Source of the DNA: Haloprofundus halobius
Lineage (GTDB): Archaea > Halobacteriota > Halobacteria > Halobacteriales > Haloferacaceae
Direction of reading: 5' to 3'
NCBI RefSeq assembly: GCF_020097835.1
Contig: NZ_CP083666.1
Coordinates: 372,001-436,000, forward strand
DNA length: 64,000 nt
Below, piece after piece: positions 31,456 through 32,027 of the stretch (its first letter is position 1; every line of letters begins with the position of its first letter). The notes beneath the pieces are model-generated. The model ran no database searches, had not been told where the DNA came from, and worked only from the letters and a program-made list of their open reading frames with translations. The translations under genes were made by a program, and so were the position numbers.

Positions 31456-31817
31456 CCCGGCGAAACAATGCGATATACGTAACCTCTTTTCGAATATCGA
31501 AGTCCTGACCATCGGCCGACGCATAGTTTCGGAATTGAAGGAGTTACCACTAACCGTTTATAAAGAGTGAGGAGAATATTCGTGCCTTCAGGCGCGGGAG
31601 GATGTCAAGTCGTCCGGACGGAAGCTACTGCCTCACGCGGCCGAGGATACGGTAGAAACGACGTCCGGGGGCACGTCGATCGTGGCCTCCAATCTCGAAG
31701 AACGCGAAAAAACCAGAAGCCACTCCGTCGTACCGGGGCCGTCACAGTAACTGTCGGCGCTGGCGTGGTGCGCCGCCGTTTCGGTCGGTTCGTCCGTTTT
31801 CACCTCGTTCTACCCGC
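31456..31817. other. Non-coding gap between carB and a winged-helix gene
   Basis: Apart from the TnpB-element-like end at 31574-31609 and the GTTTATAAAG box at 31556-31565, I see no gene here. Short open frames exist on both strands but their composition is not protein-like and they lack start signals. Confidence 0.5.
31556..31609 (+). mobile_element. Orphan right-end-like motif of an IS200/IS605-TnpB (IS1341-type) element
   Basis: The sequence GAATATT, then CGTGCC-TTCA-GGCGCG as a six-pair hairpin (31581-31596), then GGAGGATGTCAAG (31597-31609) follows the pattern I know from the right ends of haloarchaeal IS1341-type elements: GAAT, a GC stem with a TTCA or TTTA loop, then GGAGGATGTCA. In such elements this part also forms the 3' end of the guide RNA used by TnpB. 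Upstream is a strong TATA-like GTTTATAAAG (31556-31565). No tnpB, tnpA or left end is present nearby, so this is either a remnant or a solo RNA-producing end. Confidence 0.55.
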
Positions 31818-32027
31818 TCAGTCGAGTCGATACCGATAGGGCGTCTCGCGGATGACGGTCACGCCGCCGCTTTCGGCGTAGTGACCGAGCACCGTCGCGA
31901 CGCGGTGCGAACTGTTCAACTTCTCGTGCCCTTCGAGAGACGACGTGATCTCGCGCGCGGTCAGCGGCTGCTCTGCCTCGGAGAGCACACCCTTGATGCG
32001 CTCGAACTCCCCGTGATGGGTGTGCAT
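31818..32027 (-). CDS. Small winged-helix DNA-binding protein
   Basis: The 69-residue protein begins MHTHHGEFERIKGVLSEAEQ, continues with the helix-turn-helix PLTAREITSSLEGHEKLNSS and ends with the wing VTVIRETPYRYRLD. The whole sequence is one winged-helix domain, probably a transcription regulator acting as a dimer. ATG 32025-32027 is the best start because upstream codons are not protein-like. Its target is unknown; it lies between carB and the DUF5815 gene and probably has its own promoter in the 160 bases upstream. Confidence 0.6.
   Translation of the reverse strand: MHTHHGEFERIKGVLSEAEQPLTAREITSSLEGHEKLNSSHRVATVLGHYAESGGVTVIRETPYRYRLD

Follow-up and report, generated by a model that had tools for sequence, protein, structure and literature searches.

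Terminal-only palindrome-associated transposable elements (PATEs) of 52 bp have been described in Haloquadratum (Dyall-Smith et al. 2011, PMC3119063), where they were attributed to repeat-mediated deletion between near-terminal palindromes; that study did not settle whether the short form is itself mobile. In IS608, the target TTAC is read by a guide, AAAG, located 5' of the left hairpin, and the right cleavage site is TCAA (PMC5934647). Here, we analysed a window of 64,000 nucleotides from the haloarchaeon Haloprofundus halobius (contig NZ_CP083666.1, positions 372,001 to 436,000), which carries a 47-nt element 138-184 bp upstream of the start of carB, a gene identified by Pfam. Very probably, this element is a terminal-only PATE, derived by loss of the core from an IS200/IS605-type, tnpB-only (IS1341) parent.

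We place the element among the terminal-only PATEs because it fits their description in PMC3119063. Its likeness to HqIRS46 in the core-deleted form and to ISHwa23 in the 52-bp form, both from Haloquadratum walsbyi, was established from their description and not letter by letter. As in these PATEs, the element measures about 51-52 bp including the target, is non-coding, has IS605-type termini fused through one near-terminal palindrome with the core lost, and bears a short target oligonucleotide at its 5' edge, which is not duplicated. At 47 nt, it is too short for a transposase gene. It differs from the H. walsbyi PATEs in belonging to another genus, in being the one copy of its end class in its genome and in having a drifted hairpin arm. 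Close copies of the unit are present in the Haloquadratum genome J07HQW2 (G133).

With IS608 and the IS200/IS605 ends (PMC5934647), the element shares insertion 3' of a tetranucleotide without target duplication, a guide 5' of a subterminal hairpin that pairs with this tetranucleotide, a G:C or A:T pair between the guide base and the fourth target base, and right cleavage at TCAA. It differs from IS608 in that it has neither tnpA nor tnpB, one hairpin instead of two, and TTAT and AATA instead of TTAC and AAAG. Bacterial REP sequences with TnpA_REP (PMC8266576) are another case of short, dispersed, palindromic DNA that is possibly moved by a Y1 transposase. Compared with REP sequences, the element has both ends defined to the base and a low copy number. 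Its 5' tetranucleotide is AATA, and that of its relatives is AAAG or AATA. In REP sequences, the palindrome is preceded by the tetranucleotide GTAG, which is found in neither.

The element and its empty site

The features of the element are as follows.

31558-31561, plus strand: target and left cleavage site TTAT (C_L), within TTTAT at 31557-31561 and outside the element; this flank is kept in the alignment to the empty sites of congeners.
31562-31608, plus strand: element body of 47 nt, comprising the left-end linker, the guide, one hairpin and the right-end terminus; missing from four congeners, with dispersed copies elsewhere.
31575-31578, plus strand: left guide AATA (the G_L equivalent), assigned on the grounds that its last base covaries with the fourth base of the target; its position follows from the analogy with IS608 (PMC5934647).
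31581-31596, plus strand: subterminal hairpin CGTGCC-TTCA-GGCGCG, assigned by folding; 92% of the stem cells pair in 28 relatives.
31597-31608, plus strand: right-end terminus GGAGGATGTCAA, with the cleavage site TCAA at 31605-31608; identical to the right ends of full elements in the same genome.

The interval 31558-31608 reads TTAT followed by AAAGAGTGAGGAGAATATTCGTGCCTTCAGGCGCGGGAGGATGTCAA, and then G. The arms of the hairpin, 31581-31586 and 31591-31596, enclose the loop TTCA, and the 5' arm of this copy has drifted (TTCGTG versus CCCGCG). The hairpin alone folds slightly, and not significantly, better than its shuffles (z of -0.8 as RNA and -1.2 as DNA). The motif is judged not to be due to chance because the 51-nt unit, made of the 4-nt target and the 47-nt body, recurs across haloarchaeal genomes, and not because of its fold energy. 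It is found at unrelated places in many of these genomes, with no similarity beyond the unit. In relatives, the position of the target is occupied by TTAT or TTAC, and the position of the guide is AAAG in the TTAC-type relatives as well as in IS608. The 13-mer GGAGGATGTCAAG has one exact match in the window, where two more sites with 2 mismatches are at chance level, and it occurs three times in the genome, against zero for the reversed control.

The intergenic region 5' of carB is conserved across the congeners G001-G004, and the 47 bases are absent from the site in all four of them. Once joined, the flanks of the element (...AACCGTTTAT + GTCGTCCGG...) align ungapped to G001 (...GACCGAGTATGTCGTTCGG...). 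This corresponds to a clean insertion of 47 bp, 3' of TTTAT, with TCAA at its end and no target duplication. None of the relatives seen has a full-length copy at this site, and for this reason the deletion step is not seen directly at the locus. For the 13 copies of G133, compared with 16 genomes of its genus, the intergenic flanks are too diverged for exact junctions. In three G133 copies (L048, L051 and L053), coding-like sequence that is conserved with relatives starts at, or at most a few bases from, the right edge, and the left flank is short or diverged; insertion beside gene ends may be favoured. L228 (Natronococcus sp. A-GB1) and L283 (G402:C43) are one and the same fused element with identical flanking bases in two genomes, which suggests one inherited insertion.

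Directly to the right of the element, and 5' of carB, there is a conserved non-coding block of ~84 nt (31612-31695, plus strand; L297-L301). The element was inserted 3 bases from the edge of this block, which is intact. The block, found 5' of carB in each of the four congeners and in one genus beyond them, has a predicted two-stem structure. Its inner hairpin is CGACGTG..CACGTCG, and its outer stem is GGAAGCCAC/GTGGCTTCC, for which G003 has the compensatory form GGGAGCCAC/GTGGCTCCC. A covariance model of the block matched 5' of carB in the congeners and in G091, of the other genus (E 1.7e-6), and gave two weaker matches that are not near carB (G028 and G033). Double changes were found in only 2 of 26 pairs, with an unfavourable covariation term, and the block had no match in Rfam; it is possibly a structured RNA or a cis-regulatory element. 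Between carB and the next gene lies a small ORF of 69 aa, MHTHHGEFERIKGVLSEAEQPLTAREITSSLEGHEKLNSSHRVATVLGHYAESGGVTVIRETPYRYRLD (31821-32027, minus strand), which has a winged-helix-like look and no Pfam match. In the carB-upstream alignment, this ORF is present in G002 and missing from G001, G003 and G004.

Comparison with full elements

Full elements start with TTA(C/T), a linker, AAGGAGAA, a hairpin and GATGAATCC, and they end with a hairpin and AGGATGTCAA. In the window unit, the left end, up to and including its hairpin, is followed directly by the ~10 terminal bases of the right end. A sequence-only reading of this DNA had described an orphan right end, which leaves out the left end that forms the 5' half; the object is a fusion of both ends with a defined length of 47 bp. 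Matches from other genera in the first search begin at the same left border as the window unit. The same reading correctly recognised the resemblance to haloarchaeal IS605/IS1341-type right ends, and it correctly saw that no tnpB is attached, the neighbours being carB and small ORFs.

Within the genome of H. halobius, the right ends at C1:516769-516780 and C1:2875977-2875988 are identical to the window terminus. The former has its partner left end 1.4 kb upstream. The latter closes an element with tnpA and tnpB, whose left end, TTAC, is near C1:2874044. Judged from its sequence, this TnpA+TnpB element is intact-looking. A TnpA of 143 aa (Y1_Tnp, E 4e-33) adjoins a right end ..GGAGGATGTCAA, and the genome has three TnpA genes, one of which lies within an element that shares the right end of the window. 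This genome yielded no full left end that is of the TTAT/GAATA type and has GATGAATCC. A full element of the TTAT type, encoding a TnpB of 438 aa, is present in the congener G003. In Natronocalculus amylovorans (G012), a fused copy is identical, hairpin included, to the left end of a full element that has a TnpB-sized ORF of 428 aa.

Spread of fused units and pairing of guide with target

With a 40-nt pattern, the fused unit was found in 11 of 170 family genomes, with 13 copies in G133 alone. A strict fused pattern was not found in viral contigs. The aligned copies share TTAT-AGAATAC-AAGGAGAATA-CCCGCGTCTTCAGGCGCGGG-AGGATGTCAA and nothing beyond. A looser fused pattern, for which the reversed control gave zero, was found in 89 of 392 genomes and in 45 of the 95 genera of the order, a count that includes a handful of likely coding false hits (G283, G293, G316 and G445); about 85 of the 392 genomes remain when the coding hits that were noticed are dropped. 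This suggests that fused ends are common in haloarchaea. Fused copies of other end classes, 51-52 nt long, are present in the genome of H. halobius, and two of them are near-identical, one on the chromosome and one on a second replicon.

C1:2858659-2858710 and C2:132825-132876: fused copies with target TTAT, ending TCAC.
C1:2170855-2170905: fused copy with target TGAT, ending AGGAGGTCAA.
C2:62605-62655: fused copy with target TTAC, ending TCAC.

The target TGAT belongs to a second end system of this genome (L061, L153, L157 and L158), with the foot GCGCATAC and the right end AGGAGGTCAA. This system is that of a TnpA-bearing element, and it has a fused copy too.

The guide base directly 5' of the hairpin tracks the fourth base of the target. 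Among fused copies whose target could be assigned, G occurs 70 times with TTAC and 2 times with TTAT, while A occurs 28 times with TTAT and 2 times with TTAC. In full left ends, the corresponding numbers are 20 and 0 for G and 21 and 1 for A. The rule is obeyed by 98 of 102 fused copies (Fisher p = 1.9e-20) and by 41 of 42 full left ends (p = 8e-11), values which overstate independence because the copies are related, although the rule still spans many genera. The pair in the window copy, AATA and TTAT, agrees with the rule. Fused copies follow the guide rule of IS608.

Origin of the element

We propose that an element of the IS200/IS605 family, of the tnpB-only (IS1341) kind, lost its core of ~1.4 kb. 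The loss would have occurred by recombination or slippage between two near-identical subterminal hairpins, and it would have left the 47 nt made of the left-end linker, the left guide, one hairpin and the right-end terminus. TnpA, a Y1 transposase, would follow the rule of the IS200/IS605 family and join the single-stranded ends of such an element 3' of TTAT, without target duplication; the guide, which lies 5' of the hairpin, would recognise TTAT by base pairing. The insertion was presumably made by TnpA acting in trans, and the core may have been lost either before or after it. The suggestion of a deletion relic, which was part of the sequence-only reading, came close to this.

A refinement of this explanation, whose probability is conditional on it, is that the 47-nt unit was itself transposed to this site by TnpA in trans, as a minimal single-hairpin element, and was not core-deleted in place. 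If the element is a terminal-only PATE, the two possibilities are about evenly balanced, and we give transposition of the unit slightly less than an even chance. In G133 (Haloquadratum walsbyi J07HQW2), one hairpin class accounts for 15 of ~20 fused copies but for ~2 of 20 left ends, as counted by hand (Fisher p = 7e-5), which speaks for mobility; however, deletion may be easier between perfect hairpin repeats, and this would also enrich one class. Also in favour of mobility, G012 has two identical 52-nt copies at unrelated sites, and a left end with that hairpin was not found there; moreover, the window site is empty in all congeners. One hairpin, on the other hand, may not suffice for transposition. 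In IS608, the TnpA dimer of the transpososome receives a separate hairpin from each end. Strain comparisons in PMC3119063 bear on both sides, as six strain-specific insertions of ISHwa23 were all in the 52-bp form, while core deletion in place was documented four times, one strain carrying the complete element where the other carries the core-deleted form.

According to the sequence-only reading, the motif could be a solo omega-RNA-like guide gene, transcribed from a TATA-like box, with its guide starting at 31609 and serving a TnpB encoded elsewhere. The hairpin and terminus are indeed those of the 3' ends of haloarchaeal TnpB omega-RNAs or sotRNAs, which are expressed (PMC12558985), and full TnpB elements are present in the genome. 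However, the element, known here from DNA alone, has no tnpB and, at 47 nt, no room for the pseudoknot scaffold that lies upstream of the right-end hairpin in omega-RNAs (PMC12558985), and the flank upstream of it is carB-upstream DNA common to the empty congeners. In the empty-site alignment, the TATA-like box resolves into the target TTTAT and the first bases of the element, and an archaeal start ~25 nt 3' of this box would land inside the hairpin, which leaves no sensible promoter. An Rfam search of the region gave no match. When the 16 bases after 31608 were searched for in the genome as a target, none of the seven best other matches inspected (<=2 mismatches) was preceded by TTAT. We consider a guide-RNA gene at this position highly improbable. 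A degenerate one-ended relic, produced by ordinary deletion of everything upstream of a right end, is just as improbable: the 3' half alone does match right ends, but left ends are matched by the 5' half, the borders are exact on both sides, and joining the flanks recreates the site that is empty in four congeners. Deletion from one end would leave the left flank unrestored.

As a core-deleted PATE, the 47-nt element is probably a neutral passenger upstream of carB, and any functional role is putative. Terminal-only PATEs are an already known kind of element, to which the window element adds another member. What could be misread as a solo guide-RNA end is a transposon remnant with fused ends; other right ends of this sort that seem to stand alone in haloarchaea should first be checked for such fusion. 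Tentatively, and at somewhat less than even probability, the 47-nt fusions may be mobile in trans by TnpA; they would then be the smallest IS200/IS605 substrates, with one hairpin and one DNA guide for both ends, and they would have spread in a REP-like manner through much of the haloarchaeal order. Their spread, together with the pairing rule of IS608, now allows a direct test of the question raised in 2011, namely whether terminal-only PATEs can themselves transpose.
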